Part shown: piece by piece, positions 32,555-41,679 of the stretch
How positions within the stretch are numbered: the stretch's first letter is position 1
Layout of the letters: every line of letters starts with the position of its first letter
Assembly (NCBI GenBank): GCA_913058215.1
Contig: CAJXQE010000011.1
Coordinates: 1-41,679 of the forward strand
DNA: 41,679 nucleotides
From: an uncultured Verrucomicrobiales bacterium
GTDB lineage: Bacteria; Verrucomicrobiota; Verrucomicrobiia; Verrucomicrobiales; DEV007
Direction of reading: 5' to 3'
Notes under the pieces: generated by a model
The model's database searches: none
What the model was told of the DNA's origin: nothing
What the model saw: only the letters and a program-made list of their open reading frames with translations
Translations under genes and position numbers: made by a program

Positions 32555-34291
32555 TTACTTGGCTGCTGCAACTTTTTCACCCAACTGATAAGCATAGAGG
32601 TGAGTTTGAGTCATCACGTAAAGCACGCCATTCGCAATCGCGGGAGTTGCATAGATTGGCGCTTCGTAAGTGATCGTTGCCAGCTCCTCTTTTTCTTTGC
32701 CGGCTTTCAGCACGAGAAGTTCCCCATCCTCAGTTCCGATCAGCACTTTGCCGTCGACAACCATCGTAGATCCCCAGATGTGGGCAAGGGTGTCATGCTC
32801 CCAGTATTTCTCACCTGTCTCAGCATCGACGCAGTAGATTCTTCCGGAATAATCCGCAAGGTAAACCAGCCCGTCAACGACGGAAGGAGTGGAAATCGTC
32901 CGACCGACTTCTTTAAACTGCCAAACAATGGCATCTTCCCCGGTTCCTTTGGAAGGATCGATGCAGGTAAGACAGCCAACTCCTTCACCGTGCTCAGGAT
33001 CCTGACCAATGGGCACGTACACCTTGTTATTGGCTACGACGGGAGAAGAGATAATCTCTGAAGGTCCGGGATACGTAGCATACTTGATCGGCTCCCCTTT
33101 TTCGTCAAAACGATACTCTTTCGGACAGCAATCCACCGCCCAGAGTTCTTTTAAGAGACCAAATTTCTCACCACCGTCGTCCTCTACGTCGAACTCAGCT
33201 GCGTGGTAACCGTATGTAAACCCATCCCCTGCTCCGAACACCACGGTCGGTGTTCCATTAAGACTTTCAGAGTAGCCGGGCGAAGACCAGTTACAGTGCA
33301 TGATGCGCTCACCGATTCCGCTTCCCTCTTCAGCAACAAGTTTGCCGGTCTTTTTATCAAGAGCCACAAGACAAGGGTTGTAGGGTGCAGGAATATTGAT
33401 GTGAGACCAGTCGACACCGTTCGATGTACTCGCAAAAATGTAGTCACCGGCAATGGTTACTGAGCTACTGGTGATGTTGTGCGGGAAAACTCCAAGATCA
33501 CTTCGCATGTCGTAACCCCAGACGATGTCGGCGCTTTTATCGTCGAGCGTTGCTGCTTCCGCTCCCTCGAGCTTCTCAAGCCCACCGTTCTGATACTTGG
33601 CTTCGTCTTGAAATGGGCCGTCGTTGCCATCGCTCATTCCGTAAACGTCGAGACAGATGACTTCACCACGGTTAGTAATCACGTAACCGTATTTACCATC
33701 GATCGCGATCGATGAACACACCCCGAGGAATTCCCAGTCAGAAACCTTACCCGCCCCGAGTTTTGGAACGGAAAACTGCCAGAGCAATTCACCGCTCTTC
33801 TCGTCGAAACACATGATGACACCGTGGTCACCTTTGACTGAATCGATGCGCGGCTTCTCATTGTTGGTTCCAATGAATACGCGTCCACCGCTCACGGTGG
33901 TGGTTCCGTATGCTTGTGAGCCCATCTCCACGACCCACTTGGCGTGCTTGGCACCCGAGACTTTTCCGTCGCCATCCATTTCACCGGAAGTGAAATCAGT
34001 TGGAACGCCGCTGGCAGGAGACATCATGTTGTTGGAACCGTCACGGCCCCACTGAGTCCACTCGCCACCGCCGGGAGCCGCTGCTTCAGGGGCAGGGCTC
34101 GGAGCTTTTTTCTCATCTGCTGCCTTGGCCTTTTCACCTTTAGGTGCCGCAGGCGGTTTAGTTCCGCTGCCTTTAGCGGCATGCATTTCTTTTTTCGCTG
34201 CGTCTGCTTCGCTGTTTCCGGCATCCTCGTTACAGGATGTGAAGGCAAACAGAACCAGAAGGATGCTCAATAAGTGAATCAGTTTTTTCAT
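32555..34291 (-). CDS. PQQ-type beta-propeller lipoprotein
   Basis: The 578-residue protein starts with a lipoprotein signal (LLVLFAFTSC, C20 the likely lipidated residue). An Ala/Lys/Pro-rich spacer (about 25-75) follows, and then a propeller of PQQ-like blades, for example MCFDEKSGELLWQF, LVALDKKTGKLV, YCVDAETGEKYWEH and VLIGTEDGELLVLK. The W-motif (DxxTGxxxW) of the blades is visible, but no alcohol dehydrogenase catalytic residues were seen. It is likely a structural or binding propeller, as in BamB, rather than a quinoprotein enzyme. It lies 58 nt downstream of a second, larger propeller. Confidence 0.87.
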   Translation of the reverse strand: MKKLIHLLSILLVLFAFTSCNEDAGNSEADAAKKEMHAAKGSGTKPPAAPKGEKAKAADEKKAPSPAPEAAAPGGGEWTQWGRDGSNNMMSPASGVPTDFTSGEMDGDGKVSGAKHAKWVVEMGSQAYGTTTVSGGRVFIGTNNEKPRIDSVKGDHGVIMCFDEKSGELLWQFSVPKLGAGKVSDWEFLGVCSSIAIDGKYGYVITNRGEVICLDVYGMSDGNDGPFQDEAKYQNGGLEKLEGAEAATLDDKSADIVWGYDMRSDLGVFPHNITSSSVTIAGDYIFASTSNGVDWSHINIPAPYNPCLVALDKKTGKLVAEEGSGIGERIMHCNWSSPGYSESLNGTPTVVFGAGDGFTYGYHAAEFDVEDDGGEKFGLLKELWAVDCCPKEYRFDEKGEPIKYATYPGPSEIISSPVVANNKVYVPIGQDPEHGEGVGCLTCIDPSKGTGEDAIVWQFKEVGRTISTPSVVDGLVYLADYSGRIYCVDAETGEKYWEHDTLAHIWGSTMVVDGKVLIGTEDGELLVLKAGKEKEELATITYEAPIYATPAIANGVLYVMTQTHLYAYQLGEKVAAAK

Positions 34292-34349
34292 GGTAAATAG
34301 TTCGTTCGTTTTTGCTGGGTCGAAAAATCAGGATATCTATCGATCTAGA

Positions 34350-36617
34350 TCAGTTCTGGATAATTTGGAGATTGTCGATAAACACGCTCTTCTGACTTTG
34401 GGGAGAAAATCCAAAGAGACCAGGAGCACCTTTTTTGTGTGCAGTGGCATGCTTCACTTCAATGGTCCATGCATCCGGCTCAGCTTGATCCGTTTCCCAG
34501 GCCTTCGCCTTGATGACTCCGGAACCGTCCTCAGCGATGTCCACTTTGGTTTTAAGGGTGTACCACTTGTTCGCCGAGATTCGGAAAGGGACGGACTCTT
34601 TCACGCGTTCATGATTCGAACTCACCTCCAGGAGATTCGCGTTCCCGATAAGAGCAACGATATAGCGTTGATTAATCAAACCAACCACCGACTTCACCCG
34701 GCGACTTCCATCGGTCATTAAATCCGCCTGCACGGTGCAGTTGGTTAGATCGGGATGTCCGATGAAGGAAAGCGAACGTTGGAAAAGGACTCGATCGAGA
34801 GTTTTCGCGAGCACTTTATTTCCATCACGCTCACGGACCTCCCACTTGAGACGTGCACCAATCCAAGGAAGAGGTGGGTAAGCGAATCCACTTTCCCCGA
34901 TTTCAAAGCTTTGAAAGTCCTCTTTGTAAGGAAGGTTGGAAATCACACGGCCGCGTGCGAATCCGGTGAGCCCGTCAGCCGAAGCCTTCCAGGCCCCTGC
35001 AGAAAGAGCCGCATCGTTTCCTGCAGAAATCGTGTTCCCTTTGAAATCGGCATCCATCTTCGCCTTCACTTTTGCAGTGGGAGGAATAAACTTGGCCCAT
35101 TCCGCATCCCCTGCTTCACCAACAGGAATTCCGTTGGCATCCAGTTTCACCATTTTTACGGTCGCGGAGTCTCCTGCCTGAAGGAGCACATCGGTAGGAA
35201 CTGCCGTCAAGGAAGTCGCTTCGCCAGCCGACGGCATTTTGTCCTCAGGGGCATCCGCCCATTTGATTCCGGTATTCTTAATTTCGAAACAGTAAAGCTT
35301 CTCAGTTGTGTGCAGATAAACTTTCCCGTTACAAATGGAAGGCGTACCAATGCAGTTCCCGTCGACTTCAATCTTGTGAAGGATTTTTCCTTCATCACCA
35401 CTCACGTCGATGACATAAAACTCACCGGGATACATCGCTACGTAGAGTTTGCCGTCGGCATAAACCGGACTGGCGTGAAGCTGCTCATTGGAAAGTTTCA
35501 GCTCCCAGAGGCCCTTACCCGACTCAGCATCGAGACAGTGGAGGCTACCGGTCTTGACGATCTGATAAACTTTCCCGTCGTGAAGCGTAGGAGAACTGGT
35601 AAACATCTCCAAGGTCTTGCGCCAGGCTTCAACACCTTCAGTAATCCGTGGTGCACCTTTTTGCTTAGGGTCGATCTCTCCACCTGTGTTGTCGTAGTCT
35701 TTCGGAAGGTTGATCGCAAAAATTCGACCGATCTCTGTGGTATCCAGATTCTCTTTGCCGTGAATACAAATGAGTTGGTCACCCTTAACCACGGGCGAAC
35801 TGTTAACCCCACCTTTGGAAATCTGGTAACGCCAGAGAGGAGATCCGTCATTTACGTTTACACAAACAATGTTGCCACAACCGGTTCCGGCGTAAAAGAC
35901 GCGTTTGCCGTTCCGGGTTTCCACAAAGGGAGTGCTCATCGAGCTGTCACGAAGGAATGGAGGACCGACTCCCGGTGTCGAAGACCAAAGCAACTCGCCG
36001 GTCTTTTTATCAAATCCAAAAAAGCGGTCGCGAGCTGGACCATCTGCTCCCCAGTAACTGGTCACACCGCGTATGATCGCGATATTGCCATCAATCACGG
36101 GAGCACCTGCGCGACCGTTTGGAAAGGTCAAGCGTCCGAAGCGCTCCATCATGGAGTGTTCCCATACCTGATCACCATCCTTGGTGTAACAAGTCACCAG
36201 GCCGTAAGTGGTCGCAACGATTACATTCTCCGTTTCCGTGTCGATCGCCACAGCGCCAATGCTGTAACGATTGTAAATCGTATCTGAAATGAAATCGTGA
36301 GTGGCCCTTTCCCAAAGGACTTTACCAGTCGCTTCTTCACGGGCTTGAACCACTTCTTCCAAGTCGGCCCCTTCACCCCGGTAGGCCCAGGTATACATCC
36401 GGCCTTTAAATATCACAGGTGTTCCCCGGCCGGCAATCTCGTCAGTCCAAACCGGCTCTTCGTTGAACTCGTAGCCTTCGTAGCTTTCAAGGCTGACTCC
36501 GGTTTGTAGAGGCCCCCTCCAGGAAATCCAATTCCCTTTGTGGGATTCGTGGTGATCGGCAAGCAGCGGCAGCGCAGCCAAGGAAAGAAAAGACAGAACG
36601 GAAAATAAACGTTTCAT
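34350..36617 (-). CDS. Secreted PQQ-type beta-propeller protein with C-terminal carbohydrate-binding-like domain
   Basis: The 755-residue protein has a signal peptide (cleavage near LPLLADHHES). A PQQ-like propeller covers residues about 30-470 (GKVLWERATHDF, FDKKTGELLWSS, CLDAESGKGLWEL, FYVIDVSGDEGKILH). A C-terminal region at about 540-755 has a concanavalin-like feel (FQSFEIGESGFAYPPLPWIG, then KWYTLKTKVDIAEDGSG and KSVFIDNLQII). The last part resembles family-16-type sugar-binding or laminin-G-like domains often attached to secreted PVC proteins; that is inference. It is probably the first gene of the run. Confidence 0.83.
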   Translation of the reverse strand: MKRLFSVLSFLSLAALPLLADHHESHKGNWISWRGPLQTGVSLESYEGYEFNEEPVWTDEIAGRGTPVIFKGRMYTWAYRGEGADLEEVVQAREEATGKVLWERATHDFISDTIYNRYSIGAVAIDTETENVIVATTYGLVTCYTKDGDQVWEHSMMERFGRLTFPNGRAGAPVIDGNIAIIRGVTSYWGADGPARDRFFGFDKKTGELLWSSTPGVGPPFLRDSSMSTPFVETRNGKRVFYAGTGCGNIVCVNVNDGSPLWRYQISKGGVNSSPVVKGDQLICIHGKENLDTTEIGRIFAINLPKDYDNTGGEIDPKQKGAPRITEGVEAWRKTLEMFTSSPTLHDGKVYQIVKTGSLHCLDAESGKGLWELKLSNEQLHASPVYADGKLYVAMYPGEFYVIDVSGDEGKILHKIEVDGNCIGTPSICNGKVYLHTTEKLYCFEIKNTGIKWADAPEDKMPSAGEATSLTAVPTDVLLQAGDSATVKMVKLDANGIPVGEAGDAEWAKFIPPTAKVKAKMDADFKGNTISAGNDAALSAGAWKASADGLTGFARGRVISNLPYKEDFQSFEIGESGFAYPPLPWIGARLKWEVRERDGNKVLAKTLDRVLFQRSLSFIGHPDLTNCTVQADLMTDGSRRVKSVVGLINQRYIVALIGNANLLEVSSNHERVKESVPFRISANKWYTLKTKVDIAEDGSGVIKAKAWETDQAEPDAWTIEVKHATAHKKGAPGLFGFSPQSQKSVFIDNLQIIQN

Positions 36618-36928
36618 AAAAAATTAAACCGATTGGTGGACCAGACTACGGATACATTCCGCGCCTCTACACCGGCGCCATGGTAGGATTCTGCAATCCC
36701 CTGCGCAAAGGGAATTTTTGAGAAAATCGCGCCTATTAGAAATTCTAATCAATTTTCCCAAACTTTTCGATTTTCAGCCGAAATGCCGGAAATTCCTCGC
36801 AGTATTATTAATTTTGCTAATCCTAAATCAAGAGGAGTGGATTTTGAGGCCGAAGAATCCCGGTTTCAGCGAGAATAGTGAACTTTCAGTCACAGAATAT
36901 CATTCCTGATGCCAATAAAGGATTGAAG
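36618..36928. promoter_or_regulatory. AT-rich divergent promoter region, no gene seen
   Basis: This 311-nt gap separates two divergent transcripts, the PQQ-propeller run (-) and the ECF sigma gene (+). It contains a 15-bp palindrome (36735-36749). No convincing ORF and no certain promoter boxes were recognised. An ORF from 36718 runs in another frame across this gap but has no ribosome site or domain. Confidence 0.45.
36735..36749. promoter_or_regulatory. Palindrome ATTAGAA-A-TTCTAAT, possible operator
   Basis: The arms 36735-36741 and 36743-36749 are exact inverse complements around one base. Placed between divergent genes, about 120 bp upstream of the PQQ run and 180 bp upstream of the sigma start, it could be a shared repressor or activator site. 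The AT-rich composition makes a chance palindrome more likely than in GC-rich DNA. Confidence 0.3.
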
Positions 36929-37513
36929 ATGTATCTTAGAGCAGTCATCGCAGAAGAAAATTCAGCATTGTCCGGCCCGGCAGAGGAAAAGGATTTTGAG
37001 ACCCTGGTTCGTGAGAATCACCGGGAACTGCTTGTTTATGCACTTGCCCTGACAAAGAATCCCACGACAGCCAAAGATATCGTTCAGGACTCCTTTGTCG
37101 TCGCTTTTCAAAAAAGAGAGACCTTTGATGTGACTCGTGATTTTGGAACCTGGATGCGTGGCATCGTCCGAAACAAGTGGAGGGAATGGATTCGTAAAAA
37201 TTCCCGGTACCAACTTTCCGAAGATGATCTGGCAATAATGGACGCGGACATTGCCCGCTGGCAGGGCGAAAAAGCGACGGGTGACAGCTCGGCCTTTGAC
37301 CGGCTCGATCAATGCCTCAAGCGCCTCCCGGATAACTTGCGGGAAACCATTCACTCATTCTACTACGAAGGTCGTACCGGCGAAGAAGTTTCAGATGTCC
37401 TTGGTATTGCACCGGCAGCAGTGAGGAAAAGACTGCAACGGGCACGGGAGATGCTCAAGGATTGCGTGGACCGAAAGATTGAAGCCGCTGCTGCTGAACT
37501 CCGAAACTCCTGA
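36929..37513 (+). CDS. ECF-type RNA polymerase sigma factor
   Basis: The 194-residue protein has region 2 at about 20-90 (LLVYALALTKNPTTAKDIVQ, then FGTWMRGIVRNKWREWIRK) and region 4 at about 130-175 (LPDNLRETIHSFYYEGRTGE, then VRKRLQRAREML). I start at ATG 36929 because AAAGGA at 36917-36922 sits 6 nt upstream; the earlier GTG at 36878 has no ribosome site. It is followed 29 nt later by a membrane protein that is its likely partner. It is of the short, canonical ECF kind, unlike the other sigma factor in this window. Confidence 0.9.
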   Translation: MYLRAVIAEENSALSGPAEEKDFETLVRENHRELLVYALALTKNPTTAKDIVQDSFVVAFQKRETFDVTRDFGTWMRGIVRNKWREWIRKNSRYQLSEDDLAIMDADIARWQGEKATGDSSAFDRLDQCLKRLPDNLRETIHSFYYEGRTGEEVSDVLGIAPAAVRKRLQRAREMLKDCVDRKIEAAAAELRNS

Positions 37514-37542: not shown

Positions 37543-38469
37543 ATGGAAAATGAATCGACAAATTTTACTGATCCAACTCCTCCGGGAGGAGCTCTGGCAG
37601 ATGCTCTTCTCCATGAGCATGCGCGATTGGGAACCTCGGACGATGAAGAACTGATTTCCAGAATTCTCGTTCGGACTGTGAACAAAACAAACGCAGCGCC
37701 GGTTTCTCCTGCTGCTGCTCACAGAATGGCTGTGCGTGAATGGATGCAGCTGGGTGGAGCGGTGGCGGCAGTTATCGCCCTTCTCCTGATTGCTCTCTCC
37801 ATGTTCAATGTCAGAGACGGCGCTTCTTCCGACACGTTTCATATGACGGTTAAATTCGTCGAGGCGGCGGAAGGAGACATTCAAGTCGCTTCTGTAGACC
37901 TCCCGAAACCCGATCAAAAACCCGCCCGTCCATTTCAAGGGCAGGTTCTCCCTCAAGTGGTGAACGGCGAAACAGTATCGTCTGTAACCATCGAGGATCA
38001 GGATTTCAATCTGATCACTTACTTTGAACAATCGTTCAAGAGTCCTCCGGCAAAAGCGACGAGGATCGATAGTATCACCATTATCGCCGGCCGAAGCACC
38101 CGTGATGGCGACGAACTCATTTTTGAAGGCAATGTGATTGTGACTCATCATGATTTCGTATTAAAAACAGATAGCCTGCGATTGGTCACTGCCAGTCAGA
38201 AGTCGGGACAAGTTCCCTCATTCATTGCCGAGTTTGCGGAAATTTCCCATCTGGCCACGAACAGCAAGGCGTCCGCCAGGAAAGTAGTCTTTGATACTGC
38301 CACGAGTTCACTGGTCGCCCACGGAGTCGTTTCTCTGACGGGGGCAAATGGAGGGCATCCCGAATTCGACTCGGCCAGCGAGCGCCTTGTTTTCCAGGGC
38401 GATACTTTGAAAATTCTCCCAGATAAAGTCGAGGCCTATGCAAATCCATTGCCTCTGGAACCTCGATAG
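37543..38469 (+). CDS. Putative anti-sigma/partner: one-pass membrane protein with LptA/OstA-like outer domain
   Basis: The 308-residue product has a cytoplasmic N-terminal part of about 68 residues with acidic and charged stretches (EEHARLG-like start, SDDEELISRILVRT), a membrane segment at about 70-88, and a periplasmic part. Residues about 188-292 repeat the LptA/OstA pattern: DELIFEGNVIVTHHDFVLKT, DSLRLVTA, ARKVVFDTATSSLVAHGVV, and RLVFQGDTLKI. No ZAS zinc motif was seen, so it is not the common anti-sigma type. Position right after an ECF gene and topology suggest a sigma regulator. The OstA-like part is from pattern reading only. Confidence 0.6.
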   Translation: MENESTNFTDPTPPGGALADALLHEHARLGTSDDEELISRILVRTVNKTNAAPVSPAAAHRMAVREWMQLGGAVAAVIALLLIALSMFNVRDGASSDTFHMTVKFVEAAEGDIQVASVDLPKPDQKPARPFQGQVLPQVVNGETVSSVTIEDQDFNLITYFEQSFKSPPAKATRIDSITIIAGRSTRDGDELIFEGNVIVTHHDFVLKTDSLRLVTASQKSGQVPSFIAEFAEISHLATNSKASARKVVFDTATSSLVAHGVVSLTGANGGHPEFDSASERLVFQGDTLKILPDKVEAYANPLPLEPR

Positions 38470-41633: not shown

Positions 41634-41679
41634 CTGTCTCTTATACACATCTCCGAGCCCACGAGACCGAGGCTGATCT
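41634..41679. other. Illumina Nextera adapter and index, not genomic
   Basis: CTGTCTCTTATACACATCT (41634-41652) is the Nextera transposon mosaic end. CCGAGCCCACGAGAC (41653-41667) is the read-2 adapter. CGAGGCTG (41668-41675) matches an i7 index, and ATCT (41676-41679) begins the flow-cell adapter. Translation through it gives the artificial tail CLLYTSPSPRD on the preceding protein. Confidence 0.97.

Follow-up and report, generated by a model that had tools for sequence, protein, structure and literature searches.

One-pass membrane proteins encoded after ECF sigma factor genes usually act as inhibitors. Inhibition is documented for class I anti-sigma domains (PMC7406223), and class II anti-sigma factors such as CnrY and NepR have two sigma-binding helices (PMC7406223, PMC8103513). 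In the sigmaE–RseA–RseB and AlgU–MucA–MucB systems, lipid A binding in the periplasm steers an ECF sigma factor via a membrane anti-sigma factor: periplasmic RseB and MucB bind lipid A, which frees the anti-sigma factors RseA and MucA for cleavage (PMC7400510). These systems are a conceptual parallel to the locus described here; however, RseB and MucB are separate lipid sensor proteins, whereas the sensor-like domain of the protein we describe has the LptA fold and is fused to a putative membrane regulator. Our literature search returned no report in which an LptA/OstA domain is linked to an anti-sigma factor, although an earlier mention in an ECF classification is possible. The closest relatives in layout are ECF-linked YfbK/VWA membrane proteins of Verrucomicrobiota, and the titles and abstracts that we surveyed contain no account of such VWA-type ECF partners.

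The locus lies in the genome of an uncultured Verrucomicrobiales bacterium (DEV007; assembly GCA_913058215.1). The window, i.e., the whole stretch of DNA that was analysed, comprises 41,679 nucleotides (contig CAJXQE010000011.1, positions 1 to 41,679, forward strand) and contains an ECF sigma factor gene followed by a gene for a membrane protein, referred to below as the partner. The features of the two genes are as follows.

36889..36916, + strand: promoter-like motif GTCACAGAATATCATTCCTGATGCCAAT, with a -35 element GTCACA and a -10-like element GCCAAT; the motif ends 12 bp upstream of the sigma ATG (conservation; sole match in the window)
36929..37513, + strand: ECF sigma factor gene, regions 2 and 4 (Pfam and NCBIfam; orthologues that are 56–66% identical adjoin the same partner)
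37543..38469, + strand: partner gene, one-pass membrane protein of 308 aa, putative sigma regulator with an LptA-like outer domain (ORF and relatives)
37579..37686, + strand: predicted cytoplasmic sigma-linked module, residues 13–48, with helices 16–28 and 32–45 (conservation, sister partners, sigma adjacency)
37732..37803, + strand: transmembrane helix, residues 64–87 (AlphaFold2 helix and charge bias)
37825..37851, + strand: beta strand 95–103, which aligns with the first strand of the LptC and LptD jellyrolls (AlphaFold2, VIA-align)
37852..38055, + strand: low-confidence linker, residues 104–171 (pLDDT, low identity)
38056..38424, + strand: LptA/OstA-like jellyroll, residues 172–294 (profile searches, AlphaFold2, Foldseek, VIA-align)
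38128-38136, + strand: GNV, residues 196–198 (single occurrence in the partner)

The sigma protein consists of regions 2 and 4 (Sigma70_r2, E 7e-14; r4_2, E 6e-11 against Pfam) and has no other sigma regions, the composition of an ECF sigma factor. Among NCBIfam models, TIGR02989 (the Rhodopirellula/Verrucomicrobium ECF family) matches it best, with E 1e-31 and 109.8 bits, under the family cut-off of 124.55. The original prediction that a one-pass membrane protein without a ZAS motif is encoded after the sigma gene is borne out: the partner ORF begins after a gap of 29 bp from the sigma stop, its product has a single transmembrane helix, and its N-terminal 63 residues contain no cysteine. The ORF is, judged by its relatives, a genuine gene, given that these are open frames without internal stops that are mostly 22–32% identical. 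A single-sequence search of the genome contigs with the partner protein gave no matches, probably because the protein diverges too fast; the sigma alignment succeeded as a query in the same contigs. Upstream of the pair, two adjoining genes on the opposite strand (32555-36617) point away from the sigma gene; they encode PQQ/BamB-like repeat proteins whose N-termini resemble signal peptides.

An AlphaFold2 model of the partner, based on an alignment with 28 relatives, divides the protein into parts that differ greatly in conservation. The two short helices of the N-terminal module are modelled with a pLDDT of about 60–69, and mean pairwise identity is highest here (52% for residues 15–48, compared with 29% for the jellyroll). 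The net charge flanking the transmembrane helix averages +2.2 before and 0.0 after it, which places the N-terminus inside the cell. The original prediction had assigned residues 95–308 to the outer domain; strand 95–103 and the jellyroll lie within that span, but residues 104–165 are a disordered linker outside the domain (pLDDT mostly below 50; mean pairwise identity 18.5%), and the part modelled confidently as a beta domain is residues 174–293. Searches for known anti-sigma domains gave no ZAS, RseA, FecR, or other anti-sigma match, either for the window protein against Pfam and NCBIfam or for its 28 relatives against Pfam. The partner thus differs from class I/ZAS anti-sigma factors, in having neither a zinc motif nor a class I domain match. 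The two helices putatively correspond to those of the class II factors; however, we detected no sequence relation of the module to CnrY or NepR, and the module matched no solved structure, anti-sigma domains included, when compared with PDB sequences.

The evidence that the outer domain is related to LptA comes from both profiles and fold. As a single sequence, the window protein has only two Pfam/NCBIfam matches, LptD_N (PF03968; E 0.017, score 15.8 against a Pfam cut-off of 20.4) and LptA (TIGR03002; E 0.0018, 18.1 against an NCBIfam cut-off of 71.7), both below cut-off. Family-level searches are much stronger: PF03968 matches 24 of 28 partner relatives (best E 2.9e-8), and a profile of the partner family finds LptA chains in the PDB (E 1.3e-6) and the LptA of the same genome (E 1.5e-12). 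A profile restricted to the jellyroll retrieves this LptA at E 4.1e-13 (shuffled controls: E 10 or worse), and LptA itself is the top sequence match to the jellyroll in the genome. The fold search against LptA and LptC proposed with the original prediction gave a concordant result. In Foldseek the best 38 PDB matches of the jellyroll are all Lpt proteins (probability 1.00 to LptA and LptD; TMt up to 0.68, to LptA), and VIA-align gives Z-scores of 12.9 to LptA (2r1a_C), 12.4 to LptC (6mjp_C), and 13.4 to LptD in 9rps_A, with the best unrelated rows reaching only about 6. A chance likeness to LptA is ruled out, since the profile and fold evidence agree despite the weak single-sequence scores. 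We conclude from these comparisons that the outer domain is a jellyroll of the LptA type and a homologue of the LptA that the cell itself encodes. The repeated GNV pattern described in the original prediction is reduced to one occurrence; the full LptA domain length and this core GNV strand are retained throughout the partner family.

The partner shares with LptA and the LptD N-terminal domain the jellyroll fold, strand order, GNV core, and sequence homology; unlike them, it is membrane-anchored, has a predicted cytoplasmic N-terminus, is paired with a sigma factor, and is encoded outside the lpt locus. Set against the features of the LptA class, the window protein has the fold, and both a score at the curated cut-off and the character of a soluble periplasmic protein encoded in an lpt locus are absent. 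With LptC it shares a single N-terminal transmembrane helix followed by a periplasmic jellyroll; LptC differs in lacking the long disordered linker and the extra cytoplasmic module, and neither the window protein nor any of 28 family members matches the LptC model (PF06835) at E 0.1. The partner therefore resembles LptC in topology and LptA in sequence. Family searches identified LptA and LptD in the same genome, with lptA on a different locus (L069) far from the partner gene, and LptB-, KdsA-, and LpxA-like genes were named by reading their sequences. Given these Lpt, KdsA-like, and LpxA-like genes, the organism probably makes LPS.

The pairing of the partner with the sigma factor is highly conserved, as a co-occurrence check across other Verrucomicrobiota had been meant to establish. 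Partner relatives are present in 33 of 191 related genomes searched, and 30 relatives were aligned. In all of the loci examined (n=30) a related sigma gene lies directly upstream, 56–66% identical to the window sigma where the locus is outside the window. Conversely, among 72 genomes compared, each of the 29 with a sigma factor at at least 56% identity also has the partner. About 30 named records also contain the pair; with few exceptions they are MAGs of uncultured Verrucomicrobiales or Akkermansiaceae. The partner is missing in most of the family and the order, where Lpt proteins occur.

The N-terminal module extends beyond the LptA-type partners. Sister sigmas (39–49% identity) are followed by partners that have the same module and a transmembrane helix with different outer parts: vWF_A, VWA, and YfbK_C domains (L063, in the same genome, and L065), a weak F5/8C-like, i.e., discoidin-like, match (L107, in G081), and, in L200 from a Planctomycetes MAG, alpha-2-macroglobulin-like domains. 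The two sets of N-terminal regions align in hhalign with 97% probability (P 3.6e-11), and the sister-type profile detects LptA-type partners down to E 2.6e-10, with the best shuffled sequence at 0.6. A module profile searched over the 72 genomes finds 38 places, and by coordinate comparison every one of them immediately follows a sigma gene from the same clade; at G032:C137 the adjoining sigma gene is a fragment at the contig start. The original prediction had proposed residues 1–68 for a sigma-binding test, and the restriction of residues 13–48 to the neighbourhood of such sigma genes lends this proposed binding indirect support. The partner layout hence looks modular: a sigma-linked two-helix module is combined with interchangeable outer domains, the LptA-like one being a lineage-restricted variant. 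The presence of the same module with other outer domains on sister sigmas makes the LptA-like domain look like a swapped-in sensor. The YfbK/VWA partners share the N-terminal module, the transmembrane helix, the adjoining related ECF sigma gene, and mostly a similar GTCACA element; where they carry vWF_A, VWA, and YfbK_C, the window partner carries the LptA-like domain. The layout that the original prediction regarded as novel is accordingly common to the VWA-type partners, and what is new, on these sequence comparisons, is the LptA-like sensor. The LptA-type sigmas cluster in a tree of the sigma factors (support 99/94), together with one exception (L195), the partner of which retains a vWF_A remnant, and the outer-domain change happens once in 42% of bootstrap trees. 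One exchange of the outer domain would account for this tree, which does not, however, prove a single origin. The VWA/YfbK-type pair of the same genome is a paralogous ECF sigma gene and membrane partner on contig C15 (L063 1599-5100), and the wider modular family extends to Planctomycetes MAGs (L197, L198, and L200).

The motif upstream of the sigma gene suggests that this gene is autoregulated, as is common among ECF sigmas. In 28 of 29 genomes the consensus, GTCACA(A)-N14/16-GYCAAT, is found 10–18 bp upstream of the sigma ATG with at least 11 of 14 matches, a level reached by 34 of 580 shuffled sequences; in the window, 0.03 matches are expected by chance and one is found. A similar GTCACA element precedes most sister sigmas, so the motif is not specific to the LptA-type sigma. 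The exact motif has 4 matches in the genome, compared with an estimated 3.7 or so expected, and one of these is the sigma gene's own site. Across the genus there are 35 matches, compared with 3 in a reversed control; 10 are at the sigma gene, and the remaining recurrent sites precede TPR/squalene-cyclase-like genes. Because such sites also occur in G016, a genome without an LptA-type sigma, they may belong to other sigmas. The TPR/squalene-cyclase-like genes include large ORFs with TPR-like N-termini (L156 646-2571, L160 617-2545, L157 621-3110, and others), at least one with squalene-cyclase-like toroid repeats at the C-terminus; GTCACAA-N14/15-GYCAAT is found repeatedly ahead of the TPR-like ORFs in the genus, and it is possible that they are a conserved target of some ECF sigma factor. 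None of the lpt genes examined in the genome has the motif upstream; one relaxed match falls within the lptA coding frame. We found no LPS genes behind the motif at the genus-wide sites either. An exact motif near the start of an exported-metalloprotease-like ORF (L121, C15:23338-23364), about 7 kb from the VWA-type sigma gene, makes this ORF a candidate target.

We posit, with a probability of roughly 0.6, that the two genes form an autoregulated signalling unit in which the ECF sigma factor is paired with a cognate regulator that spans the inner membrane once and has a sigma-binding module, LPS or the Lpt machinery being the most likely signal. That the partner regulates the sigma factor is very probable given the conserved adjacency and the shared module, and its effect is probably inhibitory. 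That the jellyroll's ligand is LPS or an Lpt protein is plausible at somewhat below even odds. The two-helix module would hold the sigma factor in a CnrY-like class II manner and would release it, by regulated proteolysis or a conformational change, upon a change of state in the periplasmic jellyroll; the likeliest signal would be lipid A/LPS, or the Lpt bridge itself, entering or docking to the jellyroll during disturbed LPS export. In its most specific form, which we put forward tentatively, the jellyroll would take up lipid A/LPS or dock on the LptC–LptA bridge, the ECF sigma factor would read jammed or overflowing transport with no RseB-like intermediate, and the LptA domain would have been swapped onto a regulator that elsewhere bears VWA.

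The alternative that survives best retains the regulatory role and assigns the jellyroll a structural or protein-binding function without LPS binding, with misfolded outer-membrane protein, a glycan, envelope spacing, or something else being sensed. The unrelated outer domains of the sister partners (VWA/YfbK, weak F5/8C-like, alpha-2-macroglobulin-like) indicate that the module has no fixed link to LPS, the motif leads to no LPS genes, and the jellyroll is divergent; this quick divergence would fit a ligand that changes, or loose constraints on the fold, as well as LPS. However, the family-wide retention of the LptA domain length and GNV strand, together with LptA as the best match in the genome, favors a link to LPS transport, and we regard LPS-independent sensing as a real but minority possibility. 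That the partner co-activates the sigma factor, or has a dual regulatory role, instead of acting purely as an anti-sigma factor is unlikely: the sign of regulation is not given by sequence alone, and RskA is reported to be an activator-inhibitor of SigK (PMC7509140), but the common inhibitory role of proteins so encoded argues for inhibition. It is very improbable that the partner is a membrane-bound LPS-export accessory, an LptC/LptA-like bridge part that shares the operon by chance without regulatory contact, as its LptC-like topology and the alignment of its first strand after the membrane with the start of LptC might suggest, because the module is also found on non-Lpt proteins behind ECF sigmas and nowhere else, the gene is distant from the lpt loci, and it is missing from most genomes of a family and order that have Lpt proteins. 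If LPS or the Lpt bridge does bind to the jellyroll, as our preferred reading holds, a single protein would connect LPS traffic with transcription, a task that takes several components in the sigmaE pathway. Swapping domains within this modular family would also help to assign signals to the many ECF sigmas of Verrucomicrobiota and Planctomycetota that are still uncharacterised.

The assembly retains Nextera transposase adapter sequence: the 3' end of the window (41634-41679) reads CTGTCTCTTATACACATCTCCGAGCCCACGAGAC..., and contig C425 starts with the reverse complement of the same adapter (L070 1-30). ORFs with the ending LLYTSPSPRDRG or LSLIHISEP are artefacts.
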